Assembly: GCF_023008405.1 (NCBI RefSeq)
Contig: NZ_CP095376.1
Coordinates: 1,822,001-1,886,000 of the forward strand
Direction of reading: 5' to 3'
Origin: Amycolatopsis sp. FBCC-B4732
GTDB taxonomy: Bacteria; Actinomycetota; Actinomycetes; Mycobacteriales; Pseudonocardiaceae
DNA length: 64,000 nt
Below, in pieces: positions 39,134 to 55,026 of this stretch. Under the pieces are notes generated by a model, which saw nothing but the letters and a program-made list of their open reading frames with translations, was not told where the DNA came from and did not search any database. Made by a program: the position numbers and the translations under genes. Within the stretch, counting starts at the first letter, position 1. Each line of letters opens with the position of its first letter.

Positions 39134-40099
39134 TCAGTTGGCGGCGCTGGTGTTCACTTCGCCGTTGACGCCCTTGGGGAAGAAGCCGCCGGACTTGGCG
39201 GCCTTGTTCGTCAGGTACACGATGTTGAGCACCTGACCCGGCGAGCGGCTGTAGGCGATACCGTTCGCGTCCGTCGGGACGATGTTCGCGTTGCCGTGGC
39301 TGTCGATGACGCCCTGGTCGTCGTCGGTGGGGCCGTCGAGGCTGTCGCGGGCGTTGGACAGCTTGACGGTCGCCTTGGCGTCGCCGCGCTGGTAGAGCGC
39401 GCTGCGGATGTTGGCCGCGTGGTACGCCTCCACCGCCAGGATGCCCGCCGCGGCTTCGAGGTAGGTCTTGTTGGTGATCAGCGGTGCGGCCCCCTTGTAG
39501 GCCGTGACGCCGACATCCTCGAACAGGAACGCCGCGAGCAGGAAGTTCTCCTCGCACGAGAACGCGTCGAAGCTCTGGCCCGGCTTGACCAGCCCGGCGG
39601 CCTGCGCGGCGGCGGTGAAGCTGGACTGCAGGTCGATCGCCGGCCGGCTGACCGCGGCCGAGCCGAGCGCGGTGCGCAGGAACTGGACGTGGGCCTTCTC
39701 GTCGCTCGCGATCTCCTGCGCGTACTGGCGGGCGGCGCGGGTCTGGAACCGGACGGCGCGGCCGCCGGTGACGCCGCCGCGGGTGCCCGTGCCGGTCGTC
39801 ATCGAGTCGGCGAGACCCTTGCCGGTGGTGGCGTGCAGGTAGAACTCGGCTTCGAGGTACTCGAGGTTGAGGGCGAAGTTGAGGACGGCGCCGTCACTGA
39901 CCTCAGCGGACGCGGCGGCCGCCGCTGCGGTGGGCCTGGTGTTCGCGGCGGATGCGGTCCCGGTGGCGAGGCCGCCGAGCGCACTCGCGCCGACGACCCC
40001 GAGGCCGGTCATGCCGGCCGCTTTGAGGAAACGGCGGCGGTCCTGGTCGTTCTCCGCGCTCCGGTTGATCATCGAAGCGGCATAGCGTTTGCCAAACAC
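39134..40099 (-). CDS. Tat-exported ferritin-like domain protein
   Basis: A 321-residue protein with a Tat signal ([20 protein letters not shown] then AXA-like ATGTASA) and a ferritin-like four-helix core of the desiccation-associated type ([77 protein letters not shown]) with Glu/His residues spaced as metal ligands. Function of exported relatives is unclear; iron or desiccation protection is suggested. GTG 40099 is preferred because GGGGAGGAG lies seven bases upstream. A SigK-like element may drive it (40192-40218). Confidence 0.88.
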
Positions 40100-40191
40100 G
40101 GACGAACTCCTCCCCACCCGCGCGAACGGCGGGCGTCACCCGGCGTCGAGCGTTCCGGCGCTGGGGGATGGATCCTTCGTGGACAGTTCGC

Positions 40192-40218
40192 TTTCGAGGC
40201 TGGGTGCGCTGCGGATGG
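40192..40218 (-). promoter_or_regulatory. weak SigK-like promoter of the ferritin-like gene
   Basis: On the minus strand CCATCC (40218-40213), 15 bp, TCGAAA (40197-40192). CCATCC is the -35 reported for mycobacterial SigK promoters. Weaker than the four other elements because the -10 differs and the distance to the start codon is about 90 bp. Confidence 0.35.
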
Positions 40219-40354
40219 GTGGTGGCCTCGAGTGGGTGACCGCGGGCACGACTTGGGCGATTCGTGCTGTTCGCCGACGAAAAATACGATGGTTTACCCG
40301 CTACTCAGCGGTAGAAACCCGTGTGGCCGGAAATAAAAAACTTGGATTTGCACC

Positions 40355-40382
40355 CAATCCGGTGAAGGTCGTCGCCCCGAAA
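40355..40382 (+). promoter_or_regulatory. SigK-type promoter of the Pro-Val-repeat gene
   Basis: CAATCC (40355-40360), 16 bp, CCGAAA (40377-40382), 43 bp before the ATG at 40426. Same -35 as the sigK and fasciclin gene elements. Confidence 0.6.
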
Positions 40383-40425
40383 TACGACTGACAGTGAAGT
40401 CCACACTCGAAGGGGGGTGAGATGG

Positions 40426-41322
40426 ATGGATACTTCCCTGACGGATGACGCACCGACGGGGCAGCCGCTCTTGCTGCGGATGCTCGTGGTCGCCGGCGCG
40501 TTGTTCGGGTTCACCCTGCTGGCCTTGGCCGTGTCGGGGACCGCGGACGCTTCCGAGGGTTCGCCCCTGGATCGGCCCGGGTTGCTCGACCACGTCGGGA
40601 GCACGGCTCACAGTGTGCTCAAGCCGGTCGAACCGGTGCTGACGTCGGTTACGAAGCCGGTGCACGCGGTGACGTCGCAGGTGGCTCAGGTCGCGAAGCC
40701 GGTGACGAACGGGCTCGAGCCTGTTCTCGCGCCGGTTACGCGTCCGGTGCTGCGCGCGGCGGAGCCGCTCCTGTCGGCCCTGCGTCCGGTCACCGAGCCG
40801 GTGGTGCACGCGGTGTCCCCGGTGACCTCGCCGGTGCTGCACGCCACGGCACCGCTGACCGCGCCGGTGGCTCGGTCGATCGGGGCCGAGGACGTGGTTC
40901 CGGTGGTGACCGGGCGCCAGGACGGCGACTGGCCGGCAAAGCCCACGCCGCGTGAAGACGTCGTGTCTTCGCCGAGCGTGGCCGCGCCTGCCGGGAGCAG
41001 TACTCCGGTCACGGTCACCTCGGCCGATCCGTGGCGTTCTCGTTTCGTGCACGCTGCTGTCCGGTCGGCTGCCGAACAGCCCGGTTCGCGGATCGGTGTT
41101 GCCGATCCGGTGCCCCTGTCGGGCGGTGGCGGGCTGCCCGCCGACGTCTCCGGTGCGAGCGGGGCGATGTCGGCGAGTCCGGGTGGCCAGCACGGTGGCG
41201 AGTACGCCGTGACCACGGCCGGGAGCGCTGTTCCCGGTACCGATCGCACGTGGCGGGCACCACCCGCCGGGGCGTGGTCGTTGCACTGGCTGGAGTACTA
41301 CGGCAACGACCACCCGAGCTGA
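40426..41322 (+). CDS. exported Pro-Val-repeat protein
   Basis: A 298-residue protein. ATG 40426 lies eight bases after GGGGGG; a GTG at 40417 would overlap that site. Residues 14-40 are a hydrophobic signal or anchor (PLLLRMLVVAGALFGFTLL, ending in ADAS). Residues 60-145 repeat a PVxxVTxPV-like unit every 11-14 residues (KPVEPVLTSVTKPVHAV; KPVTNGLEPVLAPVTRPV; RPVTEPVVHAVSPVTSPV), predicted to be an extended amphipathic helix or rod. The rest is Ser/Pro/Gly-rich and ends WSLHWLEYYGND. Such proteins are common in Amycolatopsis-like genomes and uncharacterised. Fifty-three bases before the Gly/Asn-repeat gene. Confidence 0.8.
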   Translation: MDTSLTDDAPTGQPLLLRMLVVAGALFGFTLLALAVSGTADASEGSPLDRPGLLDHVGSTAHSVLKPVEPVLTSVTKPVHAVTSQVAQVAKPVTNGLEPVLAPVTRPVLRAAEPLLSALRPVTEPVVHAVSPVTSPVLHATAPLTAPVARSIGAEDVVPVVTGRQDGDWPAKPTPREDVVSSPSVAAPAGSSTPVTVTSADPWRSRFVHAAVRSAAEQPGSRIGVADPVPLSGGGGLPADVSGASGAMSASPGGQHGGEYAVTTAGSAVPGTDRTWRAPPAGAWSLHWLEYYGNDHPS

Positions 41323-41375
41323 CGGGCCCTTCCACCTCAAAATCCACAATGGACAGAGAGCTAGGAAGGGAAGTC

Positions 41376-43091
41376 ATGCACAAGTACGTGCGACGCGGCC
41401 TGACCGCCGCGTTCATCTCCGGCGGGTTCGTCCTGCTGGGATCAGCGGTGGCCAGTGCGGACACCGGGAACTCGGGCCCGCTGGGCGGGCTCGGCACCAC
41501 GCTGCACTCGGTGGTCTCCGGCGCTTCGGCCGGCGGCACCGGCGGGGACTCCGGTTCCGGCGGCAACGCGAGCAGCAGCAACAACGCTGTCAGCGGGAAC
41601 TCCGGCAACTCGGGCAACTCCGGGTCCACCGGGCACAACAGCGCCTACGGCGTTTGCGTGCTGGCCAAGTGCACCACCTCGGTGTCCTCGGGCAACTCCG
41701 GGAACACGGGCGCGACCGGCTCGACCGGGAACGCCTCGAACACCAGCAGCACCGCCGGCGGCCACTCCGGGAACGCCGGCAACGGCGGCTCCGGGACCAC
41801 GGCGGCGTCGGGCAGGAACACCGCGGACTCGCGGGGCGCCCGCGGCGTCCTCGGCTCGGTGACCGGCACCGCCAGGGGCGGCAACGGTGGCGACTCCGGT
41901 GACGCCGGGAACGCCACCAGTTCCAACTCGGCGGTGTCGGGGAACTCGGGCAACTCCGGGAACTCCGGGTCGACCGGCGGCAACAGCGCCTACGGCCTCT
42001 GCCTGCTGGCGCAGTGCTCCACCACGGTGACCTCGGGTGACTCCGGGAACACCGGCGCCACCGGCTCGACCGGCGACGCGAGCAACACCAGCACCACCAC
42101 CGGCGGAAATTCCGGCTGGGCGGGCAACGGCGGCGACGCCACCGTCGTCAGCGAAAGCCGCAACTCCGCCACGAACACCGGTGGGCACAGCTGGAAGCGT
42201 CACGGGCAGGGCGGCGACACGGGCGTCCTGGGCTGGGTCACGGGCACGGCGAAGGGCGGCAACGGTGGTGACTCCGGCGACGCCGGGAACGCCACCAGCC
42301 ACAACAACGCGGTGACCGGGAACTCCGGCAACTCGGGTGACTCGGGCTCCACCGGTGGCAACACCGCCATCGTGTGGACGCTCGGCGGCCAGGACAAGGG
42401 CCGCGGCCACGGTGGGCACCAGTACTGCGGTGGGAACCACGGCGGCACCTGGAACCACCACGGCAGCTGGAAGCACGAGGGCACGACGTCGCACACCGCG
42501 GTGACGTCGGGCAACTCGGGTGACACCGGCGCCACCGGTTCGACCGGCGACGCGGGCAACTGGAGCACCACCACCGGCGGGAACTCCGGCTGGGCGGGCA
42601 ACGGCGGCGGCGCCACCGTCGTCAGCACCGGCCAGAACTCCGCGATGAACAACGGTGGGCACAGCTGGAAGCGGCACGAGCAGGGCGGCCGCACCGGCGT
42701 CCTGGGTGTCGTGACCGGCATCGCCAAGGGTGGCAACGGTGGCGTTTCCGGCGACGCCGGAAACGCCACCAGCAGCAACAACGCCGTGAGCGGCAAGTCC
42801 GGCAACTCGGGCGACTCGGGCTCGACCGGCGGCAACACCGCCGTCGTCTCGACCCGCGGGCACGAGCAGCAGGGCCGTCACCACGGTGGCTGGAAGCACG
42901 AGGGCACGACGTCGCACACCGCGGTGACGTCGGGCAACTCGGGTGACACCGGCGCCACCGGCTCGACCGGCGACGCCTGGAACACCAGCACCACCACCGG
43001 CGGCAACTCCGGCTGGGCGGGCAACGGCGGCGACGCCGGCGTCATCGCCACGGGCTGGAACACCGCCGCGCACACCCCGCACACCGTCTGA
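41376..43091 (+). CDS. exported Gly/Asn/Ser-rich repeat protein with Cys-type and His-type modules
   Basis: A 571-residue protein: signal peptide (KYVRRGLTAAFISGGFVLL, cleaved after ASA near residue 30), then four imperfect modules of 115-155 residues (boundaries about 41540, 41880, 42260, 42735). Each has GNSGNSGxSGSTG, a variable core, then SGxTGATGSTGxAxNxSTT and GGNSGWAGNGG. Modules 1 and 2 have a hydrophobic core with a Cys pair (AYGVCVLAKCTT; AYGLCLLAQCST), recalling chaplin-like surface peptides. Modules 3 and 4 replace it by His/Trp-rich cores (HGGTWNHHGSWKHEGTTSH; GRHHGGWKHEGTTSH), possible metal ligands. AGGAAGGGA precedes the ATG. No characterised family recognised; probably a surface or matrix protein. 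Confidence 0.82.
   Translation: MHKYVRRGLTAAFISGGFVLLGSAVASADTGNSGPLGGLGTTLHSVVSGASAGGTGGDSGSGGNASSSNNAVSGNSGNSGNSGSTGHNSAYGVCVLAKCTTSVSSGNSGNTGATGSTGNASNTSSTAGGHSGNAGNGGSGTTAASGRNTADSRGARGVLGSVTGTARGGNGGDSGDAGNATSSNSAVSGNSGNSGNSGSTGGNSAYGLCLLAQCSTTVTSGDSGNTGATGSTGDASNTSTTTGGNSGWAGNGGDATVVSESRNSATNTGGHSWKRHGQGGDTGVLGWVTGTAKGGNGGDSGDAGNATSHNNAVTGNSGNSGDSGSTGGNTAIVWTLGGQDKGRGHGGHQYCGGNHGGTWNHHGSWKHEGTTSHTAVTSGNSGDTGATGSTGDAGNWSTTTGGNSGWAGNGGGATVVSTGQNSAMNNGGHSWKRHEQGGRTGVLGVVTGIAKGGNGGVSGDAGNATSSNNAVSGKSGNSGDSGSTGGNTAVVSTRGHEQQGRHHGGWKHEGTTSHTAVTSGNSGDTGATGSTGDAWNTSTTTGGNSGWAGNGGDAGVIATGWNTAAHTPHTV
41540..43060 (+). repeat. four tandem coding modules of about 340-475 bp
   Basis: DNA repeats underlying the modules of the exported protein. 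Blocks such as GGCGACTCCGGTGACGCC-like and GGCAACTCCGGCTGGGCGGG recur with few changes in modules 2, 3 and 4, while core segments differ in length and kind. The pattern fits duplication followed by core exchange. The open reverse frame over the region is a by-product of this composition. Confidence 0.75.
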
Positions 43092-43111
43092 CGGTCAACG
43101 GGGAGCGCATG

Positions 43112-43143
43112 AGTGGGGCACCGGCGAGATCCGGTGCCCCACT
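43112..43143 (+). terminator. intrinsic terminator after the repeat-protein gene
   Basis: AGTGGGGCACCGG (43112-43124) and CCGGTGCCCCACT (43131-43143) form a perfect 13-bp stem with a six-base loop, followed by TTTTG. It lies 21 bp after the stop. Confidence 0.92.
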
Positions 43144-43375
43144 TTTGTCGGAGGACCGCGCGACCGCTGGGCGGGACTGGTGGAGGCGGACGCCGTGGCG
43201 GGCAGTGCGGCAGTCACGAGCAGATGACGGCCGGAATGTGCCTGCGATGTTCTCCTTCTCCTCAAACGGTCACCGGTCACGATCCGGATGGCGAATGGAT
43301 CACCAGGAGTTCAGCGGAATCAGGCCCGGCGGACAAGTTCCCGGCACTGGACGAGGCCCTGTGGCTGCCAACGCG

Positions 43376-43407
43376 GAAGGCCCGGTCACCTCGGTGACCG
43401 GGCCTTC
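43376..43407 (-). terminator. terminator after rskA
   Basis: GAAGGCCCGGTCACC (43376-43390) and GGTGACCGGGCCTTC (43393-43407), a perfect 15-bp inverted repeat with two bases between, lies nine bases beyond the leftward RskA stop. Confidence 0.88.
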
Positions 43408-43415
43408 GCGCTGGT

Positions 43416-44135
43416 TCAGCTGACTACGAGGCTCGCGACGGACGGTGTCGTCGGCTGCAGCGACCCGGTGGCGGGTTCGACGGTCACCGCGACACCGTCG
43501 GTCGTGGCGGGCAGGGCGGTCTCGACGGTGCCCCCGGGCCCGAGCAGTCCCGCCGATCGTGGCGTGCCCGGTCCGGTGAGCCACAGCTCGTAGGCGTGGC
43601 CGGCGTCCAGCTGTGGCAGGGCCTGCGCGGTGACCAGTACTTTGCCCAGCTGCCGGGAAGCCGTGGCCGAGACCGAGCCTCCGCCGGCCACGGCCGCGCG
43701 CACGGTGGTCGCGTCGGGCGCGGATGCCACCGCGCCACTGTCGGCCACCGGCACCGGGCGGCCGGAGACCGACTGGTCCAGCCCGATGCTGATACCGCCG
43801 GCAAGTACCGCGGCCGCTGCGGCGACCGACACCGCTGCGGTCAGTGCGCGCTTGCGCCACCGGGAGCGTCGTGCCGGGGCGGCAGGCTCAGGGGTGACGC
43901 GGGGCGGCTGCTGCCGTGTCTGGGAGATCTCGGCGAGCACCCGCCGTCGCAGTCCCGGGCCGGCAACGACTGTTGTGGCAGCGCCCAGTCTGGCGGCGGT
44001 TTCCCGGAATTCGGCGACCTCGTCCGCGCACGCGGCGCATTCGGCCAGGTGCCGGGCGAAAGCGGCATTTTCGAGGTCGTCTACCGCGTCGAGGGCGTAC
44101 GCGCCGGCGAGGATGTGGACGTCGGCGGTGGTCAT
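43416..44135 (-). CDS. rskA: anti-sigma-K factor RskA
   Basis: A 239-residue membrane anti-sigma factor. The N-terminal cytoplasmic domain has the zinc-type HxxxCxxC motif (His29, Cys33, Cys36 in RHLAECAACADE); a membrane span follows at about 95-117 (LTAAVSVAAAAAVLAGGISI) and the extracytoplasmic C-terminal RskA domain ends with DAGHAYELWLTGPGTPRSAG and a Thr/Pro-rich tail. RskA holds SigK inactive until cleaved. Its start overlaps the sigK stop (ATGA, 44132-44135), so the two are co-translated. Confidence 0.93.
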   Translation of the reverse strand: MTTADVHILAGAYALDAVDDLENAAFARHLAECAACADEVAEFRETAARLGAATTVVAGPGLRRRVLAEISQTRQQPPRVTPEPAAPARRSRWRKRALTAAVSVAAAAAVLAGGISIGLDQSVSGRPVPVADSGAVASAPDATTVRAAVAGGGSVSATASRQLGKVLVTAQALPQLDAGHAYELWLTGPGTPRSAGLLGPGGTVETALPATTDGVAVTVEPATGSLQPTTPSVASLVVS

Positions 44136-44725
44136 CGGTGCACTCCCAGAGCATCGCGCAAGCGGAGCAGTCCGTCCCGCATACGGGTCTTGACGGTGCC
44201 GACGGCGACACCGAGTTCTTCGGAAACTTCCCGGCAGGTGTAACCCTGAAAGTAGGCGAGCAGGATCGACTCCCGCTGGAGCTCGGTCAGGACCGCCAAT
44301 GCGGCGCGAACCTGCGCCCGGTCGTGCTGATCGAGCATGGTCTCGGTGACGTCGTCGTAGGGACGGCGCAGGTCCAGCCGCTCGGCCCGGTCCTCCCGGT
44401 TGACCGCGGACTGCTCAGACCGAACCCGGTCGATCGCCCGCCGGTGCGCGATGGTCAGCGCCCAGGTCTGCACCCGTCCGCGCCCGGCGTCGAACGTCGG
44501 CGCCTTGCGCCAGATCTCGAGCAGCACTTCCTGCGTGACCTCTTCCGCATGCGCCCGGGAGCGCAATACGTGGAACACGGTGCCGAAGATCGGCCCGGCC
44601 AGCTGGTCGTAGAGCGCGGCGAAAGCCTCCTCGTCACCGAGAGCGGTGCGGGCGAGCAGCTCTTCCGGTTCTAATTCCGGCTCCGCTCCGGGCACGGCGC
44701 GGAGCGCGACTGTGCGGGCTGTCAT
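44132..44725 (-). CDS. sigK: ECF sigma factor SigK
   Basis: A 197-residue ECF sigma factor: region 2 at about 30-100 (FAALYDQLAGPIFGTVFHVL, EEVTQEVLLEIWRKAPTFD, RVQTWALTIAHRRAIDRVR) and region 4 at about 140-190 (LTELQRESILLAYFQGYT, REVSEELGVAVGTVKTRMR). ATG 44725 is chosen; the upstream part is Arg/Pro-rich and unlike sigma factors. M. tuberculosis SigK senses redox through a Cys pair; only one Cys is present here (YTCREV), so that switch is probably absent. A SigK-type element upstream suggests autoregulation, and the rskA and fasciclin genes confirm the subgroup. Confidence 0.93.
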   Translation of the reverse strand: MTARTVALRAVPGAEPELEPEELLARTALGDEEAFAALYDQLAGPIFGTVFHVLRSRAHAEEVTQEVLLEIWRKAPTFDAGRGRVQTWALTIAHRRAIDRVRSEQSAVNREDRAERLDLRRPYDDVTETMLDQHDRAQVRAALAVLTELQRESILLAYFQGYTCREVSEELGVAVGTVKTRMRDGLLRLRDALGVHR

Positions 44726-44756
44726 GGCACCTGTCCTTCCCGGCGGGCGCCGAGTC

Positions 44757-44779
44757 ACACGCCGCCCTCGGCGGCGTGT
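44757..44779 (-). promoter_or_regulatory. hairpin in the predicted sigK 5' leader
   Basis: ACACGCCGCC (44757-44766) and GGCGGCGTGT (44770-44779) form a perfect 10-bp stem with a three-base loop. If transcription starts near 44780, as the SigK-type element predicts, the hairpin is the very 5' end of the sigK mRNA and may stabilise it. Confidence 0.45.
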
Positions 44780-44787
44780 CACCAGGA

Positions 44788-44815
44788 GTTCGTTCCGGCC
44801 GGCCCGCGCGGATTG
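44788..44815 (-). promoter_or_regulatory. SigK-type promoter of sigK
   Basis: On the minus strand CAATCC (44815-44810), 16 bp, ACGAAC (44793-44788). The bases just before the -35 (ACCAATCC) are the same as at the fasciclin gene. Implies autoregulation. Confidence 0.6.
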
Positions 44816-44863
44816 GTGCTGTGCCGAGATACGCAGCTCTCACCCATAAGGAGGGGCGAAGCG

Positions 44864-45722
44864 ACGCTGTCCACAAAGGATCACCCAACCCGCGAGGTCA
44901 CTCGGCTCTCGTTCGGGCACTACCAGCCGAACCGGACGGTCACGAACGACGGACTCGCAGACCGGCTAGGTACGTCCAACGCGTGGATCCGCGAGCGCGT
45001 GGGCGTGCGACGTCGACGGATCCGGTCACGACGCGGCCGAGGTCGACCTCGTGATCGTCGCCACGTACACCACGTTCGACCGGATGCCCAGCGTCGCTTG
45101 CCGAGTCGCCGAGCGGCTGGGGATCACCGCGCCCGGCGCGTTCGCCACGGCCGCCCACGCCATCCGCGCGGATACTGCCTCCCGGGCCATCGTGGTGGGC
45201 GTCGACAAGATGAGCGACTTCCTCGACTGGACTGACCGCTCGACGTGCGTGATCTTCGGCGACGCTGGGGGCGCGGCTGTCGTCGAGCGGGCCCCGGGCG
45301 GGATCGGACCGGTGGTGTGGGGCTCGGACCCGGCGAATGGCCACTGCATCACGCTCGAAGCCGCCGGGCCCGGTGTGCTGCCCGCGGTGTTCGGCAGAAG
45401 GGCCAGGCAGTGTTCCGCTGGGCCACCACCGCACCAGCCCGATCGCCCCGGAAGCGTGCTGCCGCGCCGGCGCCGACCTCGGCGGTGTCGGGACCCACAG
45501 GCCGACGTTCGCATCATCGATGCGTTGGCCCGCAAGATCGGTGCGACCGGCGCGGTGCTCGCGACGGACGTGACGGAGTCGGGCAACACCTCGGCCGCGA
45601 GCATCCCGCTGGCGTTGTCGAAGCTCGTCGAGCGCGGGGAAATCGCGGCGGGCGCGCCGGTGCCGCTGTTCGGGTTCGGCGCCGGGCTGACCTACGCCGG
45701 GCAGGTCATCAGCTGCCCGTAA
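44864..45722 (+). pseudogene. beta-ketoacyl-ACP synthase III (FabH) remnant
   Basis: Recognisable KAS III pieces in different frames: STKDHPTREVTRLSFGHYQP and NAWIRERVGV (frame 2), then VIVATYTTFDRMPSVACR, VVGVDKMSDFLDWTDRST, CVIFGDAGGAAVVE (frame 3) and the intact family end SKLVERGEIAAGAPVPLFGF and GAGLTYAGQV. The stretch with the catalytic Cys is deleted (GAFATAAHA where GAFDLNAACAGFxYALATAAHA is expected). The start position carries ACG after a good AAGGAGG site, where ATG would be expected. Clearly dead; it now lies between sigK and its oxidoreductase target. Confidence 0.88.
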
Positions 45723-45770
45723 TGCTCAAGTCTTTCACCCGATCCGGCGAAACAGAACTACCGCGCGGAC

Positions 45771-45797
45771 CAATACTTCGACCGAGCCGCCTCGAAT
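45771..45797 (+). promoter_or_regulatory. SigK-type promoter of the molybdopterin oxidoreductase gene
   Basis: CAATAC (45771-45776), 15 bp, TCGAAT (45792-45797). The context ACCAATAC...CGAATCAC agrees with that of the fasciclin promoter at 47408-47434 except for two bases in the boxes. The -10 ends seven bases before the ATG at 45805, giving a leaderless or nearly leaderless mRNA. Confidence 0.65.
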
Positions 45798-45804
45798 CAC
45801 TGTC

Positions 45805-47388
45805 ATGACCGCAACCGAGCTCGACACCCCGGAAGCCCCGTCAGCGCCGCCGCGCGCCCGGTTGCGATTCTTCGCGGCCGCGTTCACCGGCATTCTGGCG
45901 CTGGCCGCCGCGCTGGCCGCCGGGCATCTGGTGGCCGGTCTCATCAGTATCAACGCCTCTCCCTACCTCGCGGTCGGCAACGGCGCCATCGACCTCACCC
46001 CGGTCGAGCTGAAGGACTTCGCTGTCCGCACCTTCGGCACCTACGACAAGCTCGTGCTGCTGGGCAGCATGGCCGTGGTCATGGTGCTGGCCGCGGCGCT
46101 CGCCGGTGTGCTGTCGCGGCGTTCCCCGGTGCCCGGGACGGTCATCATCGTCCTGTTCGGACTGCTCGGCGGGTTCGCCGTGTCCCGGCGCCCGGATCTC
46201 ACGGTCGTCGCGCTGCTGGCGCCGGTTGCGAGCCTCGTGACCGGCGTGGCCGTTTTCCTTCTCCTGCACCACATCGCGCCCCGTGTCTGGCGGGAACCGG
46301 ACTCCGACGAGAAGACCGGAACATCGCGGCGGTCGTTCCTGCTCGGCGGAGCCGGGGTGGCCGTCGGCGCGGGCGCGATGGGTCTCGGCGGCCAGCTGAT
46401 CAGCTCGACCCGGGACGCGACGGCGTCGCGGGAGGCGATCGGCAAGCTCGTGCCCGCGCGGACCGCGCCGATGATCCCGGCCGACGCGGACTTCGCCAAG
46501 CTCGGAACCCCGCCGTTCCTGACGCCGAACGACAAGTTCTACCGCGTCGACACCGCGTTGTCGGTGCCTCAGCTGCGCGCCGAGGACTGGAGCCTGCGCC
46601 TGCACGGCATGGTCGACCGCGAAGTCCGCTTCAGCTACAACGACATCCGCAACCGGCCGTTGGTCGAGCGGACGGTCACGATGACGTGCGTGTCCAATGA
46701 GGTCGGTGGCGACTACGTGTCGACGTCGAACTTCATCGGCGTCGACCTGGCCGACCTGCTCGCCGAAGCCGGCGTGAAACCCGGCGCCGAGCAGCTGTTC
46801 TGCACCAGCGTCGACGGCTGGACGTCGGGCACGCCGGTCGCGGCGGGGCAGGACCGCGCCCGCGGCGCGATGCTCGCGATCGGGATGAACGGCGAGCCGC
46901 TGCCGCTGGAGCACGGCTTCCCGGCCCGGCTCGTCACCCCCGGCCTCTACGGCTACGTCTCGGCGACGAAATGGGTCGTGGACATCGAGGTCACGACGTG
47001 GGCGGCGCGCCAGGCGTACTGGCTCAAGCGGAGCTGGAGCCAGGAGGCGCCGATCAAGACGGAGTCCCGGATCGACTCCCACCGCGGCTTCGCCAACGTC
47101 CAAAAGGGAAAGGTGCGGGTCGCCGGGGTCGCGTGGGCACAGCACACCGGGATCGAGAAGGTCGAGGTGCGCATGGACCAGGGTCCGTGGCAGGAGACGA
47201 CGTTGTCGAAGGAGGTCAACCTGAACACCTGGCGGATGTGGTGGACCGAAATCGACATCCCTGCCGGGGTGCACCAGGTTTTCTGCCGTGCCACGGACAA
47301 GTCCGGCTACACCCAGACCGACATGCGCGCGGGCACCGTCCCGAACGGCGCTACAGGATGGCACAACGTCACGTTCACCGCCGCCTGA
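45805..47388 (+). CDS. membrane-anchored molybdopterin-dependent oxidoreductase (sulfite oxidase-like)
   Basis: A 527-residue protein. The first 155 residues hold about four membrane spans (25-47, 75-95, 103-120, 128-150); SRRSFLLGGAGVAVGAG at about 173-190 looks like a Tat-type RRxFL motif inside the protein. Residues 235-420 are the oxidoreductase molybdopterin domain, with the Mo-ligand Cys295 in TMTCVSNEVGGDY and a DWSLRLHGMVDREVRFSYND start; a Mo-co dimerisation domain (420-520) follows. Substrate unknown. Actinobacterial sigK loci often contain this enzyme with a fasciclin protein, supporting a common exported redox function. Confidence 0.92.
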   Translation: MTATELDTPEAPSAPPRARLRFFAAAFTGILALAAALAAGHLVAGLISINASPYLAVGNGAIDLTPVELKDFAVRTFGTYDKLVLLGSMAVVMVLAAALAGVLSRRSPVPGTVIIVLFGLLGGFAVSRRPDLTVVALLAPVASLVTGVAVFLLLHHIAPRVWREPDSDEKTGTSRRSFLLGGAGVAVGAGAMGLGGQLISSTRDATASREAIGKLVPARTAPMIPADADFAKLGTPPFLTPNDKFYRVDTALSVPQLRAEDWSLRLHGMVDREVRFSYNDIRNRPLVERTVTMTCVSNEVGGDYVSTSNFIGVDLADLLAEAGVKPGAEQLFCTSVDGWTSGTPVAAGQDRARGAMLAIGMNGEPLPLEHGFPARLVTPGLYGYVSATKWVVDIEVTTWAARQAYWLKRSWSQEAPIKTESRIDSHRGFANVQKGKVRVAGVAWAQHTGIEKVEVRMDQGPWQETTLSKEVNLNTWRMWWTEIDIPAGVHQVFCRATDKSGYTQTDMRAGTVPNGATGWHNVTFTAA

Positions 47389-47407
47389 GAAATATTTTCC
47401 GATCGAC

Positions 47408-47434
47408 CAATCCGGGCCCGCCCGGGCACCGAAT
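47408..47434 (+). promoter_or_regulatory. SigK-type promoter of the fasciclin lipoprotein gene
   Basis: CAATCC (47408-47413), 15 bp, CCGAAT (47429-47434), 67 bp before the start codon. CCGAAT equals the -10 and CAATCC is one base from the CCATCC -35 reported for mycobacterial SigK. Confidence 0.7.
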
Positions 47435-47501
47435 CACCAGCAACAAGAGGTTCTCGCCGACTGGGCAGCCTCAGCCGCGTAATCAATTGGAGTGAATTCT
47501 C

Positions 47502-48173
47502 GTGCGTAACCTTCGTATTGCCGGTATCGGCCTCACCGCGGCCGCCGCGCTCACCCTCACCGCGTGCAGCGGCAGCGACACCGCGTCTTCGGGCAGCTCG
47601 AGTGCGCCCGCGCCGTCCTCGTCCGCGGCCGCCCCGTCCTCCAGCGCCGACGCGGGCGCCTCGGACGGCATGACCACCAACGCCGACGTGTTCGGCCCGG
47701 CCTGCTCCCAGCTGCCGCAGGGTTCCGCGCCGGGTTCGCTGGACTCGATGGGCCCGCAGCCCGTCGCTTCCGCTGCCTCGACCAACCCGCTGCTGACCAA
47801 GCTGGTCGCCGCGGTCAAGGCCACCAACCTGGTCGACACCCTCAACAGCGCCCCGGCCATCACCGTGTTCGCGCCCGCCGACCCCGCCTTCGCCGCTCTC
47901 GGCGACGCGAAGTTCAACGAGCTGGCGGGCAAGCCGGCCGAGCTGGCGCCGATCCTGCAGTACCACGTCGTCGGCAAGCGCTACAACGCCAAGGGCCTCG
48001 AAGGCGCCGGCACCCTCGACACGCTGAACGCCGCCGGCGGGCCGCTGAAGATCGAAGGCACGGGCGAGAACATGACCGTCAACGGCGCGAAGATCCTGTG
48101 CGGCAACATCCCCACGAAGAACGCGACGGTCTTCGTGATCGACAAGGTCATGACCCCGGGCACCAACAAGTAA
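47502..48173 (+). CDS. fasciclin (FAS1) domain lipoprotein, MPT83-like
   Basis: A 223-residue lipoprotein: lipobox LTAC with Cys22 (TLTACSGSD), a Ser/Ala/Pro-rich linker to about residue 55, then one FAS1 domain: GPACSQLPQGSAPGSLD, NPLLTKLVAAVKATNLVDTL, ITVFAPADPAFAALGD and LAPILQYHVVGKRY, ending VNGAKILCGNIPTKNATVFV. The order matches mycobacterial MPT83/MPT70, the classic SigK targets. FAS1 proteins mediate adhesion. It is initiated at GTG 47502. Confidence 0.93.
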   Translation: MRNLRIAGIGLTAAAALTLTACSGSDTASSGSSSAPAPSSSAAAPSSSADAGASDGMTTNADVFGPACSQLPQGSAPGSLDSMGPQPVASAASTNPLLTKLVAAVKATNLVDTLNSAPAITVFAPADPAFAALGDAKFNELAGKPAELAPILQYHVVGKRYNAKGLEGAGTLDTLNAAGGPLKIEGTGENMTVNGAKILCGNIPTKNATVFVIDKVMTPGTNK

Positions 48174-48822: not shown

Positions 48823-49293
48823 GGCGGCCGTACAGGAAGTCACAGTAACTGCCTCTTTTTTGTCGTCGTAGAGGACTTGCAGGCTGAAGTCCTGGTAGAC
48901 CTCCGCCACGTCGATCGCCTGTGCGTCCGGCAGGTGCTCACCCACGGCTTGACCTTCCTGCTCATGGCCCGCGTCGTGCTGCCCGGTCACACGTCCTTGG
49001 CTTGACCGCGGAGGACTTCAGCGGCTCACGCCGGGCGAGCCTGGCCTGGGACCTTGTCCGCGACGTCGCCGGGCTCGACGGCCCACCCTCTTGGGTGGGC
49101 AGAGAGCTGACTGTGCGTGACCGAGATGGCACGGGCGATGTAGCGATCTGTAACTCCACTGTGACACAGACCCTTTCAAGTGCACGGACTGCGATGTAGC
49201 ATCGGTCCGATCAAGCCGACGGATCAAGCCGGACGGCACAGTCGCCCTGGACGGTGTGCCCGTCCACTCCGAGAGTGCCGAGGGGTCAGGCCC

Positions 49294-52200
49294 ATGGAGT
49301 CCGCAGTAGTCGGCCGCGCGCTGCGCGGAATTCTGGTCGTCGTCCTGTTGCTGGCCGGCAGCGTGGGCACCGCGGGGGCGGTGACCGCGCCCGCCGATGG
49401 CCCATCGGCCAAGGAGAAGGAGCGCACCTCGCTCGCCGACGTCGCCAAGACGCCGGAGCCGCAGGTGCCCGACAAGTCGTGGCAGGTCGACGGGAACGGG
49501 ACGTTCACCGATTCGATCGCGCTCCGGGTCCCGGCCTTCCACGACATCACCCCGCAGTTCTCGCTGGCCTACGATTCGTCCGCCCTCAACGGGCTGGCCG
49601 GGGTCGGCTGGACGCTGAGCGGCCTCAGCGAGATCGAACGGGCCGGCGCCGGCAAGGGCGCCCCCCGCTACGACGCCTCGGACGTCTACCTCGCGGACGG
49701 CGAGGAGCTCGTGCCCTGCGTCGCCGGCAGCGTGAGCCCGAGCTGCACCTCGGGTGGCACGCACGCGACCAAGAACGAGTCCTTCCGGAAGTTCGCGCTG
49801 ACCGGCACCGGAGCCGCCAGCCGGTGGACCTTGACCGCGAAGGACGGCGTCAAGCGCGTCTACGCGCCCGTGCTGTCGGCCGGGACCGATCTCGTCTACC
49901 GGTGGGGCCTGAGCCAGGTCGTCGACCCGAAGGGCAACACGGTCACCTACAACTGGGCGGCCAACCAGTTCGCGTGCTGCTGGGAGTACCTCGATTCGGT
50001 CACCTACAACGGGACGACGGTCAAGTTCACCTACGAGCAGCGCACCGACACCGATCTGCGGGCGATGGGCAACGGCGGCATCCGGACCGTCCAGGGCCGC
50101 ATCAAGACCATCGACGTGAGCGTCGGCGGCAGCCGGGTCCGCGCGTACAAGCTGACCTACGCCACCAGTGACGCGACGGGACGGTCACTCCTGTCGGCCG
50201 TGCAGCAGTTCGGCACCGACGCCGTCCTGGACGCCGCGGGCACCGTCACCGGCGGCACCGCGATGCCACCCGTGACGGCGACCTACCAGGCCGGCGCGCC
50301 CGCGTTCGTCTCCGGCAGCAACAACCAGGCGTTCACCGGCAACAACAACGCCGCCAAAGACTTCCCGATGGACATCAACGGCGACGGCAAGACCGACATG
50401 CTGGAGCTGTGGCCGAACTTCGGGACCTACCAACGCAAGACGTGGCTGTCCGACGGCACCGACTTCACGCTCGCGTCGGCGGAAGGCGCGACGTCGCTCA
50501 ACGAGAACGCGCGCTACCTGCCGGGTGACTTCACCGGCGACGGGAAGTCCGACCTGCTGGAGTTCTCCCCCTCCGGCCTCGGTATGGCGCGGCAGCTGTG
50601 GGTGTCCACCGGCACCGGCTTCACGGCGGGTTCGACCGGCGCGGCCCAGGGCCGCAACGACGCGAACGCGCGCTTCCTCCCGATGGACGTCAACGGCGAC
50701 GGCAAGACCGACGTCCTGGAACTGTATTCCTGCGGCATCTTCCCGGTGAACTACTGCCGCGCGACGTGGCTTTCGGACGGCACCACCTTCACCCTCGCCT
50801 CCAACGACGCCGGTATCGCCTACGACGCGAATCGGCAGTTCGAGGCCGCCGACGTCAACGGCGACGGCAAGACCGACTTCGTCGAACTGTCGCCCGCGCT
50901 CTTCGGCGCCGGCAACCGGCACATCTGGCTGTCCACCGGAACCGGCTTCGTCTCCGGGGCGAGCGACTCCGGCATCTCCTGGAGCGCGCCGAACGCGGAA
51001 GGCGCCGGCAGCCGGTTCCTGATGATGGACGTCAACGACGACGACAAAGTCGACATGGTCGAGCTCTACCCGCTGTTCGGCACGTACACCCGCCGGACGT
51101 GGCTCTCCACCGGCTACAGCTACAAACTGGGCGCCACCGACACGAGCATGGCCTACGCCGAGACGTCCAAGCAGCTCGTGATGGACGTCAACGGCGACCA
51201 CCGGATGGACATGGTCGCCCTCTCCCCGGGATTCCTGGGGGCGTCGACGAAACGCGACATCTGGTTGTCCACCGGCTCCGGCTTCACGCCCGGCGCGAGC
51301 GACCCGACGATGGGTACCTACTCCTGCAGCAAGGGCACCTGCACCAGCGACTTCCTCGAAATGGACGTCAACGGCGACATGCGCACGGAAATGGTGGAGC
51401 TCTACAACACCAACTTCGGCCTCAACAAGGGGCGCCACATCTGGAACATGGGCGGCGCGGCGACCGACGTGCTGACCTCCCGCACCAACGAGTGGGGCGA
51501 CAAGACGTCGGTGAGCTACCAGCCGTCGTCGGCGTGGGCGAACACGAACAACCCGCCGCTGACCCAGACGGTGTCCGCCGTGACCGACAACGCCGGCCCG
51601 GGTGGCGCCGCGACCACGAACTACAGCTACTCCGGCGGGGCGTACCACCACCCGGAGCGCACGTTCCTCGGGTTCCGCACGCAGCGGGAGACCAAGCCGT
51701 GCAACGCGGGCGAGACGCAGTGCCCGTACGTCGACACGACGTTCCGCCAGGACCTCGCCGCGATCGGCCAGGCGGAACGCGTCGAGAACCACGGCGGCGA
51801 CGGCGCGCTGCTGAGCTCGACGGTCACCGACTACGTCACCAACGGCACGACCGTGCCGAGGACGGCGCTGCCGACCGGCACGATGGAGACCGCGTACACC
51901 GGCAAAAGCGCGGTGTGCCCCGGAGCGGACTGCAAGCGCAGCTACACGAGCCGGGCGTACAACGCCTACGGCGAAGTGGTGACCCAGATCGAGAACGGCG
52001 ACAACGAGCAGGCGGGTGACGAACGCACGACGGTGACCACGTTCGTGCCCAACACGGCCGCCTACATCGTGAACAAGCCGGCCGCGGTGAAGGTAGTCAC
52101 CGGGGTCGGCGCCGGCGGGACGAAGCTCAGCGAGACCCGCACCGGGTACGACGGCGCGGCGTGGGACCAGGCTCCCGCGGCCGGTTACGCGACGTCGTCG

Positions 52201-55026
52201 GCCCAGTGGCTTTCGACGCGGGACGCGTTCGTCGGGACGGGCAAGGAGTACGACGCGTGGGGCAACCTCACCGCTGAGATCGACGCGCTCGGCGGACGCA
52301 CCACACTCGGCTACGACCCGGCGTACCACAGTTTCCAGACCTCGGAGACCAACGCGCTGTCCCAGACGGTCGACGCGACGTGGGATCCCGTCTGCGGCAC
52401 ACCGACCCGGGTGAACGACCTCAACCGGCAGGCGACCACGGTCACCTACGACCCGCTGTGCCGGGCGGCCGAAACCACCCAGCCCGGCGGCAAGTTCGAA
52501 CGCCACAAGTGGGTGGACGTCGGCGATCCGGCCAAGCAGTACGAGCAGATCGAGAAGCCGGCCGCGGACGGGACGAGCGCCCCGCAGTGGAGCCGCCGCT
52601 ACGTGGACGGTCTGCAGCGCCCGTACCGCACCGCGAACAAGGGCCCGGACGCGGCGACCGGTGACATCTACGTCGACACGGCGTACAACGCCCGCGGCCA
52701 GGTCGCGTCGAGGACCGCGCCGTACTACTGGGTGGCGGGCACCGCGCAGCCGGTGACGTACCCGACGCTCACCGCCTACGACGGGCTCGACCGGGTGGTC
52801 AAGACCACGCTGCCGGGTGGCGCGGTCCAGACCAAGAGCTACGGCCCGTGGTCGACCACCAGCACCGACGAGAACGGGCACGCCACGACCGACCGCCTGG
52901 ACGCCTACGGCAAGCGCGCCGAGCGCCAGGAGCCGGTCGGCGGCAAGCCCGTGACCGCGCGGTACGACTACGACCTGCGGGGAAACCTCGCGAAGTCCAC
53001 CGACCCGTCCGGGGCCGTCATCACCTACACCACCGACTCGTTCGGGCGGCAGACGAAGGTGGCGGACCCGGACAAGGGCGTCACCACCTACGAGTGGGAC
53101 GACGCCGGCCGCGCGGTCGCGCAGACCGACGCGAACAACCAGCGCACGACGTTCACCAACGACAAGCTGGGCCGCAAGACCGCCAAGACGACCAACGCGG
53201 GAACCGCGTCCGCAACGACGGTGTCCTGGACCTACGACGAGGTCCGCGCCGGCTACGCCAACGTCGGCAAGGTCACCGCGAACACGGACGCCGCCGGCAC
53301 CCGGACGTTCGACTACGACGCCCTCGGCCACACCGTCAAGACCGTGCGGACCGTGGGCGCCGCGAGCTACGAGTTCCGGTACGGCTTCGACGCGGGTGAC
53401 CGCAAGCTGTGGACCACCTACCCCGACGGGGACACGCAGGGCACCGCGGCGGCACCGTTGCGCTACGACAGCGCGGGCCGGCTCACGGCGATCCCCGGCT
53501 ACGTCACCTCGGCGACCTACAACGCCGACGGCAAGGTGACCCGGATCGCCAACGCCAACGGCACCACGACCACCCGCCCGCACGACGCGGAACGCGGCTG
53601 GCTCACCGGCATCGAGACGAAGTCGGGCGCGAACGTCGTGCAGGACAACAAGTTCACCCGCGATCCGAGCGGCAACATCACGAAGGTCACCAGCCCGTTC
53701 CCCGACGAGAGCTGGACCTACACCTACGACGACGGCGGCCGGCTCACCAGCGCGACCGACGACGCCGGCCCGGCGAACAACCAGTCCCTCACCTACGACG
53801 CGGCCGGCAACATCGCCGCGAACTCCCGGACCGGTGCCTACGCCTACGACCCGGCGCACCCGCACGCGGTGAGCACCGCCGGGGCGAACACCTACACCTA
53901 CGACGCGGCGGGCAACATGACCTCCGGCGCCGGCCGCACCCTCACCTGGAACGGCAACGGGCTGCTCGCTTCGGTCGTCAAGGGCGGTGTCACGTCGACG
54001 TTCACCTACGACGCCGACGACACCCGGCTCCAGCAGGTCGAGGGCGGCGTCACCCGCCGCTACCTCGGCGTCGACTACGAGGTGAACGTCACCGCCGGCA
54101 CGACCACCAAGTACATCTCGATCGAGGGCACGCCGGTGGCCCGGGTCGACGGCGGGACGAAGTACTGGGTGCACACCGACATCCAGGGCTCGGTGCAGGC
54201 CGAGACCGACGCCGCGGGGGTGGAGGTCCACCGCAAGAAGTACCGGCCCTTCGGCGAGGTCCTGTCGGCCGGTGGGTCGCTGCCCTTCGAGTCGCGCGGC
54301 TTCATCGCCGAACGCCAGGACTCGACCGGGCTGGTGTACCTCAACGCCCGCTACTACGACCCGCAGCTCGGCCGGTTCATCTCGCCCGACCCCACCATCG
54401 ACGGCGAAGACACCATCGGCCTCAACCGGTACGCCTACGCCGCGAACGACCCGGTGAACCAGGTCGACCGCACCGGCCTCTCGTGCCAGAAGGCGGACGG
54501 CAACAAGTGCGACCCGGAGAACGAACCCAAGATCACCCGGTCGGAGATCATCGCCCGGGCGCAGTACTGGGTCGACCACAAGCCAGGGCCGTACTACGAC
54601 CCGGACAACTTCGCCCCCGGTGACAACGGTTTCTCACCCGGGCCGGGTGACGGACGCGTCTACCGCCGCGACTGCTCCGGGTACGTCTCGATGGCCTTCC
54701 ACCTCAGCTGGAGCGCGAGCACGTACACCCTGCCCTACTACGGAGAGAAGATCGACCGCTCCGAGCTCCAGGCCGGGGACATCCTGAATTCGACCACCGA
54801 ACACGTCCTGCTCTTCCACAAGTGGCTCGACGACAAGGGGAACTTCGAGTACTACTCGTTCGGCGCGACCCCGGTGAAGCGCGCCACGGCCAACATCAAC
54901 GACTCCACCCTCGACAGCCACGCGAACGGCAACTACCAGGCGTACCGCTACGTCAACGTCGTCGATGACCCCCCGCCGCCACCCGGCGTCATCGGAAATT
55001 CCGTCGGCCGTTCGCCGTTTTCCTGA
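49294..55026 (+). CDS. secreted SpvB/FG-GAP/Rhs repeat protein with C-terminal NlpC/P60-like domain
   Basis: A 1910-residue protein from ATG 49294 (GAGGGG upstream). Residues 1-32 are a signal peptide (GILVVVLLLAGSVGTAGA). Residues 65-345 resemble the SpvB/TcdB N-terminal domain (FHDITPQFSLAYDSSALNGL, AGVGWTLSGLSEIER); 350-720 hold six FG-GAP/VCBS repeats with DxNGDGKTD calcium-loop motifs; 980-1670 are YD/Rhs repeats, closing with RYYDPQLGRFISPDP and NRYAYAANDPVNQVD. After this conserved end, residues 1733-1910 are a variable tip: RDCSGYVSMAFHLSW (Cys1794), LQAGDILNSTTEHVLLFH (His1837), the Cys-His order of NlpC/P60 enzymes. A polymorphic toxin-like architecture; a wall-hydrolytic or amidase toxin is inferred, not shown. 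Confidence 0.9.
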   Translation: MESAVVGRALRGILVVVLLLAGSVGTAGAVTAPADGPSAKEKERTSLADVAKTPEPQVPDKSWQVDGNGTFTDSIALRVPAFHDITPQFSLAYDSSALNGLAGVGWTLSGLSEIERAGAGKGAPRYDASDVYLADGEELVPCVAGSVSPSCTSGGTHATKNESFRKFALTGTGAASRWTLTAKDGVKRVYAPVLSAGTDLVYRWGLSQVVDPKGNTVTYNWAANQFACCWEYLDSVTYNGTTVKFTYEQRTDTDLRAMGNGGIRTVQGRIKTIDVSVGGSRVRAYKLTYATSDATGRSLLSAVQQFGTDAVLDAAGTVTGGTAMPPVTATYQAGAPAFVSGSNNQAFTGNNNAAKDFPMDINGDGKTDMLELWPNFGTYQRKTWLSDGTDFTLASAEGATSLNENARYLPGDFTGDGKSDLLEFSPSGLGMARQLWVSTGTGFTAGSTGAAQGRNDANARFLPMDVNGDGKTDVLELYSCGIFPVNYCRATWLSDGTTFTLASNDAGIAYDANRQFEAADVNGDGKTDFVELSPALFGAGNRHIWLSTGTGFVSGASDSGISWSAPNAEGAGSRFLMMDVNDDDKVDMVELYPLFGTYTRRTWLSTGYSYKLGATDTSMAYAETSKQLVMDVNGDHRMDMVALSPGFLGASTKRDIWLSTGSGFTPGASDPTMGTYSCSKGTCTSDFLEMDVNGDMRTEMVELYNTNFGLNKGRHIWNMGGAATDVLTSRTNEWGDKTSVSYQPSSAWANTNNPPLTQTVSAVTDNAGPGGAATTNYSYSGGAYHHPERTFLGFRTQRETKPCNAGETQCPYVDTTFRQDLAAIGQAERVENHGGDGALLSSTVTDYVTNGTTVPRTALPTGTMETAYTGKSAVCPGADCKRSYTSRAYNAYGEVVTQIENGDNEQAGDERTTVTTFVPNTAAYIVNKPAAVKVVTGVGAGGTKLSETRTGYDGAAWDQAPAAGYATSSAQWLSTRDAFVGTGKEYDAWGNLTAEIDALGGRTTLGYDPAYHSFQTSETNALSQTVDATWDPVCGTPTRVNDLNRQATTVTYDPLCRAAETTQPGGKFERHKWVDVGDPAKQYEQIEKPAADGTSAPQWSRRYVDGLQRPYRTANKGPDAATGDIYVDTAYNARGQVASRTAPYYWVAGTAQPVTYPTLTAYDGLDRVVKTTLPGGAVQTKSYGPWSTTSTDENGHATTDRLDAYGKRAERQEPVGGKPVTARYDYDLRGNLAKSTDPSGAVITYTTDSFGRQTKVADPDKGVTTYEWDDAGRAVAQTDANNQRTTFTNDKLGRKTAKTTNAGTASATTVSWTYDEVRAGYANVGKVTANTDAAGTRTFDYDALGHTVKTVRTVGAASYEFRYGFDAGDRKLWTTYPDGDTQGTAAAPLRYDSAGRLTAIPGYVTSATYNADGKVTRIANANGTTTTRPHDAERGWLTGIETKSGANVVQDNKFTRDPSGNITKVTSPFPDESWTYTYDDGGRLTSATDDAGPANNQSLTYDAAGNIAANSRTGAYAYDPAHPHAVSTAGANTYTYDAAGNMTSGAGRTLTWNGNGLLASVVKGGVTSTFTYDADDTRLQQVEGGVTRRYLGVDYEVNVTAGTTTKYISIEGTPVARVDGGTKYWVHTDIQGSVQAETDAAGVEVHRKKYRPFGEVLSAGGSLPFESRGFIAERQDSTGLVYLNARYYDPQLGRFISPDPTIDGEDTIGLNRYAYAANDPVNQVDRTGLSCQKADGNKCDPENEPKITRSEIIARAQYWVDHKPGPYYDPDNFAPGDNGFSPGPGDGRVYRRDCSGYVSMAFHLSWSASTYTLPYYGEKIDRSELQAGDILNSTTEHVLLFHKWLDDKGNFEYYSFGATPVKRATANINDSTLDSHANGNYQAYRYVNVVDDPPPPPGVIGNSVGRSPFS

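Follow-up and report, generated by a model that had tools for sequence, protein, structure and literature searches.

Candidate SigK-type promoters of one regulon at a duplicated sigK-rskA locus and related loci of Amycolatopsis

In Mycobacterium, the consensus of the extracytoplasmic function (ECF) sigma factor SigK consists of CCATCC and CCGAAT. The SigK-RskA regulon of the M. tuberculosis complex comprises mpt83-dipZ-mpt70 and a sigK locus with ufaA1. The locus considered here lies in a 64,000-nucleotide stretch of Amycolatopsis sp. FBCC-B4732 (the window; G000:C1:1822001-1886000, from a genome of 10.19 Mb in one contig), where sigK and several neighboring genes are preceded by elements that, judging from the sequence, are probably SigK-type ECF promoters of one regulon. 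SigK, RskA, fasciclin targets and a CCATCC/CAATCC-type -35 element with CGAA are common to this locus and the M. tuberculosis complex. In Amycolatopsis, however, a molybdopterin oxidoreductase gene, an exported ferritin-like gene and a pair of secreted repeat protein genes (PV-GN) carry sites as well, the locus is duplicated, and its SigK is without both redox cysteines. SigK sites are described as highly conserved among Actinobacteria (PMC7509140, citing Veyrier 2008), and the same source places them before mpt83 and in an mpt83-sigK-rskA cassette. The minimal cassette of this kind in Yersinia enterocolitica likewise has sigK-rskA next to a fasciclin gene that carries a SigK site (PMC7509140); by comparison, Amycolatopsis has more targets and a cysteine-less SigK. 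Since both the Actinobacteria-wide sites and the mpt83 cassette have been published, the core of the finding is known in kind. As far as the literature searched shows, the additions are the repeat pair, the exported ferritin-like protein, the oxidoreductase, a wider set of genes, a leaderless geometry and a duplicated branch of cysteine-less SigK. (Literature searched on SigK, RskA or ECF factors together with fasciclin, molybdopterin or Amycolatopsis contained no such Amycolatopsis regulon, which does not prove its absence.)

Four elements of the form CAATMC...CGAA had been put forward in the original prediction, and all four are present by exact coordinates. Their spacers, given there as 15-16 bp, are one base longer when measured to CGAA (16-17 bp). 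A fifth element, before the ferritin-like gene, had been described as weaker, as CCATCC-N15-TCGAAA; it exists and has an exact CCATCC, with N16 to CGAA. The five elements are:

40355-40381, plus strand: SigK-type element CAATCC-N17-CGAA, upstream of PV (Pro-Val repeat gene)
44789-44815, minus strand: SigK-type element CAATCC-N17-CGAA, upstream of sigK
45771-45796, plus strand: SigK-type element CAATAC-N16-CGAA, upstream of the molybdopterin oxidoreductase gene, its last base 8 nt from the ATG
47408-47433, plus strand: SigK-type element CAATCC-N16-CGAA, upstream of the fasciclin lipoprotein gene
40193-40218, minus strand: SigK-type element CCATCC-N16-CGAA, upstream of the ferritin-like gene

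The base preceding CGAA varies over the four CAATMC elements (C, A, T and C). The oxidoreductase and fasciclin elements agree in their flanks, as had been noted, with ACCAAT on the 5' side and TCAC on the 3' side of CGAA in both. Strict CAATMC...CGAA sites number four in the 7.2 kb from 40301 to 47500 and zero in the remainder of the window; dinucleotide shuffles of 40301-47500 (n=2000) gave a mean of 0.02 sites and a maximum of 1. A scan for sigma-70-type promoters yielded 1 match against 0.2 expected, located where the ferritin-like gene begins.

Do the elements recur in relatives? A scan of orthologues against a shuffled background, the check that had been proposed, found them at five gene families, far above shuffles. 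Sites, their conservation and the gene families involved were computed directly. In fetched loci, with strict sites, spacers of 15-18 and at most 400 bp upstream, a site precedes the oxidoreductase orthologue in 14 of 30 (0.03 in shuffles; the window gene is included) and a CAATCC site the ferritin-like orthologue in 8 of 30 (0.045 in shuffles; the window gene, with CCATCC, is not among these eight). A second set, the named loci, consisted of 80 loci collected by oxidoreductase similarity and spanning Amycolatopsis, Prauserella, Saccharopolyspora, Lentzea, Nocardia, Hoyosella, Actinomadura and Streptomyces; here the pattern was CAATMC...CGAA or CCATCC...CGA(A/T) with a spacer of 16-17. Sites were present at 33/80 oxidoreductase genes (0.18 in shuffles), 36/68 fasciclin genes (0.30) and 9/26 sigK genes (0.12), and the reversed CAATMC motif was found 0 times in the corresponding stretches of all three. 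G005, G017, Amycolatopsis sp. NBRC 101858 and the second copy of the locus also have the element upstream of sigK, and the -35/-10 pair with its 16-17 bp spacer recurs at orthologues of both the fasciclin and the sigK genes. Overall, with counts at sigK, oxidoreductase, fasciclin, ferritin-like and PV orthologues far exceeding those in shuffles, the elements are not absent from orthologues.

A scan blind to genes points the same way. The pattern ACCAATCC-N15/16-CCGAA gave 79 matches in 35 of 40 Amycolatopsis genomes, where a first-order Markov model of the window predicts about 12. The reversed pattern gave 0 matches in the 40 genomes, a control that overstates the enrichment, since that pattern is rarer by composition (1.9 vs 12.2 expected). 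Thirty of the 79 matches were fetched as loci for gene assignment, and 27 of these fall in seven gene families: fasciclin (11), peroxiredoxin (6), secreted-repeat lipoprotein (4), ferritin-like (2), CMAS (2), amine oxidase (1) and glycosyltransferase (1). (L344, where the contig ends, was counted as fasciclin by position, from the G017 gene of L147.) Three loci, L334, L341 and L346, are without explanation. In the window's own genome, a site at 1359967 (1359969 in the scan with the short pattern) precedes the secreted-repeat lipoprotein gene; it is well placed, and it recurs in other members of the genus.

The position of the element relative to the start codon is also constrained. Among 13 distinct oxidoreductase upstreams, chosen by start codon with the motif ignored, the end of CGAA lies exactly 8 nt from the ATG in 11, and in 10 of these a C(A/C)AT(A/C)C element lies at the correct distance. 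A transcript starting nine bases past CGAA would begin with the ATG, so the oxidoreductase transcript is predicted to be leaderless, starting at the A of the ATG. In the genus scan, the same 8-nt spacing was found at 5/6 peroxiredoxin, 2/2 CMAS, 1/1 amine oxidase and 1/1 glycosyltransferase genes. In the genes for exported proteins (fasciclin, ferritin-like and secreted-repeat lipoprotein), 30-99 nt separate the element from the start.

The genes of the locus are:

39134..40117, minus strand: exported ferritin-like protein gene (Ferritin_2, PF13668, Pfam 1e-45)
40417..41322, plus strand: PV, secreted Pro-Val repeat protein (start GTG 40417 or ATG 40426)
41376..43091, plus strand: GN, secreted Gly-Asn-Ser repeat protein (begins 53 nt past the PV stop)
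43416..44135, minus strand: rskA, anti-SigK factor (RskA_C 8.5e-19, RskA_N 1.4e-07)
44132..44725, minus strand: sigK, ECF sigma factor (NCBIfam NF007228, 242.7 bits against a cut-off of 226)
45805..47388, plus strand: membrane-anchored molybdopterin oxidoreductase, sulfite-oxidase-like (Oxidored_molyb 5.5e-41)
47502..48173, plus strand: fasciclin-domain lipoprotein, MPT70/MPT83 relative (Fasciclin 3.4e-29; 1nyo_A (MPT70) 8.6e-24)

The naming of the sigma factor as SigK holds, as its product passes the curated SigK model and rskA adjoins it, with overlapping reading frames and with RskA_C and RskA_N both above their cut-offs; the closest solved structure is 4nqw_A, a SigK. The fasciclin protein has a lipoprotein-like N-terminus. 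Named relatives close to the window's genome belong to Amycolatopsis: the oxidoreductase reaches 96% in the best segment against Amycolatopsis sp. NBRC 101858, and PV 95% against Amycolatopsis sp. NPDC049159. Ferritin-like orthologues were found in 37 of 200 family genomes. From these genes and sites, we infer binding by SigK and the start sites as follows. RskA in the membrane would hold SigK, which an envelope signal would release; SigK-RNA polymerase would then transcribe sigK-rskA itself (self-amplification and autoregulation) together with the PV-GN operon and the genes for the oxidoreductase, the exported ferritin-like protein and the fasciclin lipoprotein.

The original prediction spoke of a local SigK regulon. 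The shared motif stands, but the local extent does not, for the genome has four sigK-rskA loci and sites elsewhere. A second SigK copy, 90% identical, lies at 9.504 Mb in a locus that also holds the ferritin-like gene, PV, GN, a fasciclin gene, the oxidoreductase gene, sigK and rskA. The four strict sites are present again there, with altered spacers, the ferritin-like gene is likewise preceded by CCATCC-N16-CGAA, and there is an extra, second fasciclin gene. A third locus, at 69 kb (SigK 62%), has a fasciclin gene with a site. In the fourth, at 4.70 Mb (SigK 54%), sigK-rskA is accompanied by genes for an amine oxidase and a DUF1365 protein; CMAS and DUF1295 genes are divergently oriented, and two sites lie in the divergent interval. 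In gene content this locus resembles the M. bovis SigK locus, for which UfaA1 and proteins of unknown function are described (PMC10540498). With the locus present twice, two more sigK-rskA loci and a common motif, one regulon would extend over several loci, probably with cross-talk among them. Could the elements, as real ECF promoters, instead be read mainly by the paralogues of the 69 kb or 4.70 Mb loci, both of which contain the cysteines, leaving the local cysteine-less SigK with another main target or none? One motif is common to all four loci and cannot on its own assign the sigma factor. However, the element stands before the cysteine-less sigK gene in either copy as well as in relatives, and the arrangement of sites moves with the cysteine-less sigK locus, which makes such a division of labor unlikely.

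Some smaller features of these loci may be recorded here. In the second copy, a strict SigK-type site lies upstream of an HATPase_c_2 (anti-sigma-kinase-like) gene (L061:14151-14651), and Amycolatopsis sp. NBRC 101858 has a similar site, assigned to no gene (L187:13327). At L322 (G000:C1:9508697-9508724), CCATCC-N17-CGAA-N8-ATG stands ahead of a short frame that, by resemblance to the eye, is possibly a remnant of the glycosyltransferase gene of L331. The oxidoreductase gene of the 69 kb locus matches as three pieces in three frames (L063:10503-11917); it looks frameshifted, unless there is an assembly error.

Alignment to 4nqw_A places Ala142 and Ala192 of the window SigK at Cys133 and Cys183 of M. 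tuberculosis SigK, an absence that was also computed directly. Among 64 distinct SigK sequences of at least 45% identity, drawn from the loci collected in the analysis, both cysteines are present in 50 and neither in 14. In a tree of 63 SigK sequences, 13 of these 14 form one group, all of it Amycolatopsis, with support 99/98; the fourteenth is a Streptomycetales sequence. According to PMC7509140, the pair is common without being universal (94% in ECF18, 56% in ECF19); the same source, on the work of Veyrier and colleagues, has both cysteines required for full activation of M. tuberculosis SigK, and a cysteine-less Nocardia SigK acting without RskA activation. The pair is thus not a defining feature of the family, and membership in SigK stands. 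Since rskA is intact here, the simplest reading is that the cysteine-less SigK would be freed through RskA. SigK of the 69 kb and 4.70 Mb loci retains both cysteines, so that one genome provides a natural comparison between SigK with and without them.

Are the repeat proteins part of the regulon? PV, with an 11-residue periodicity, and GN, with 26% Gly, G-x-x triplets, a 158-residue superrepeat and five cysteines (94, 99, 209 and 214 being invariant across 12 aligned sequences), match no Pfam or NCBIfam family; named PV homologues are annotated as hypothetical, uncharacterised or secreted protein, and the AlphaFold2 model of GN is of low confidence (mean pLDDT 44.5). Both had been tied to the SigK targets. 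For PV this is borne out in Amycolatopsis by its own element. There is no strict site directly upstream of GN in the window, and its tie is through PV: GN is likely the second, co-transcribed gene of a PV operon, as PV stands immediately 5' of GN, with a gap of 52-70 nt, in all but one of 23 cassettes, the exception being L298 with its unclear PV frame. These 23 come from 20 genomes of 8 genera; GN-like genes with no PV-like frame (L300-L305), the partial match L285, and L283, L284 and L307, which have no GN start, were left out. Likewise set aside was a separate table of PV loci, in which 26 of 30 could be scored (the other 4 gave no match) and 7 of the 26 had a site, since two genes stand in it twice (L081/L103 and L085/L106).

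The element recurs at some of these cassettes and is missing from others. It is exact in 11 of the 23, as CAATCC in seven (own copies 1 and 2, G017, G035, G169, G140 and Amycolatopsis sp. CA-128772) and as CCATCC in four (G085, with two, G186 and G028). The G020 cassette has CAATCT, one mismatch. Amycolatopsis cassettes are exact in 6 of 7, the seventh having one mismatch. The remaining 11 of the 23, every one outside Amycolatopsis, have no such element, which counts against a general link to SigK: seven (L144, L145, L146, L149, L150, L296 and L297) have TGAACC-N16/17-CGAA at its position, L299 has CGAACC-N17-CGAA, and L298, L306 and L143 have neither variant. The TGAACC variant may reflect a change to a different ECF factor. 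Outside Amycolatopsis, PV-GN would then be mainly under a TGAACC-reading factor, and the SigK link would be lineage-specific and of little functional meaning. We consider this improbable, because exact PV-GN elements are found in four genera (g1, g49, g30 and g53), G140 of g30 retains CAATCC in a sequence context where its relatives carry TGAACC, and several such genomes have the pair close to sigK or rskA. Membership of PV-GN in the putative SigK regulon is well supported within Amycolatopsis, appears to hold for one cassette or more in three other genera, and is doubtful elsewhere.

Besides these cassettes, several further points weigh against reading the elements as a SigK regulon. The CAATMC...CGAA pattern was selected by an earlier reader only after the sites had been seen, and in the genome as a whole it is not enriched, with 33 matches (spacers 15-17) against about 39 expected from the same Markov model. 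Thirteen of the 33 were counted at plausible targets (an isolated CCATCC match at 4515121, upstream of a GDSL lipase gene, was left out of these); the other 20, screened for downstream reading frames only, were taken as chance. In the named-locus stretches, CAATMC sites also occur on the opposite strand (oxidoreductase 5, fasciclin 1, sigK 1), and the scanned stretch contains no site for 47/80 oxidoreductase, 32/68 fasciclin and 17/26 sigK genes, among which wrong start codons or SigK-independent paralogues are possible. The peroxiredoxin gene of the window's genome has CAAGCC only, and the stimulus is argued from analogy. As so short a pattern, picked post hoc, turns up often in the genome, the proof must come from relatives, and the evidence is that of site position and recurrence at orthologues. 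Chance matches carried along by recent duplication, which the short post hoc pattern and its random genome total might suggest, are a very improbable source of the elements given orthologue counts far above shuffles, spacers altered between fixed ends and coherent targets in the gene-blind scan, and for the sigK, oxidoreductase and fasciclin genes this explanation is contradicted by recurrence at orthologues.

What would such a regulon be for? Peroxiredoxin, ferritin-like protein, oxidoreductase, cyclopropane synthase and amine oxidase, and fasciclin together point to protection and remodelling of the envelope under oxidative, perhaps light-driven, stress; the stimulus and the role of PV and GN are inferred. 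The RpoE-ChrR singlet-oxygen regulon of Rhodobacter sphaeroides includes a fasciclin gene, RSP_1409, and cyclopropane-synthesis genes (PMC7074977). The likeness is one of gene content only: an ECF factor with its anti-sigma factor has fasciclin and cyclopropane-synthesis genes in its regulon, but the sigma/anti-sigma pair is a different one, and the singlet-oxygen response belongs to Rhodobacter and would apply to Amycolatopsis SigK by analogy only. In M. kansasii, light raises two fasciclin genes with putative SigK sites, and the same paper calls the stimuli of SigK-RskA still obscure (PMC9861118). The response would be one to oxidation of the envelope, perhaps driven by light, and this is the least certain step here. 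For a soil genus, the wider gene set thus offers a concrete, testable guess at the stimulus, namely envelope oxidation and light. We would suggest, quite tentatively, that SigK may be the actinobacterial counterpart of the Rhodobacter RpoE regulon for singlet oxygen and envelope oxidation, with a duplicated cysteine-less branch in Amycolatopsis that has its own gene set, is released by RskA alone and can dispense with the SigK disulfide. If this were true, that branch's own set would be the exported ferritin-like protein, the PV-GN surface pair and the leaderless oxidoreductase. On the main reading already, that of SigK-type promoters, two unstudied repeat proteins and a ferritin-like protein, all of them secreted, would join the regulon known from mycobacteria, and two protein families with no Pfam or NCBIfam match would gain a regulatory home.

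Two other features of the window lie in or next to the locus. Between sigK and the oxidoreductase gene, a fragment of a 3-oxoacyl-ACP synthase III (45051-45722, plus strand) has both domain parts incomplete and looks like a decaying gene; a 72% similar stretch stands at the matching place in the second copy. Immediately downstream of the locus (49180-55026, plus strand) is a frame of 1948 residues with RHS/YD-like repeats.

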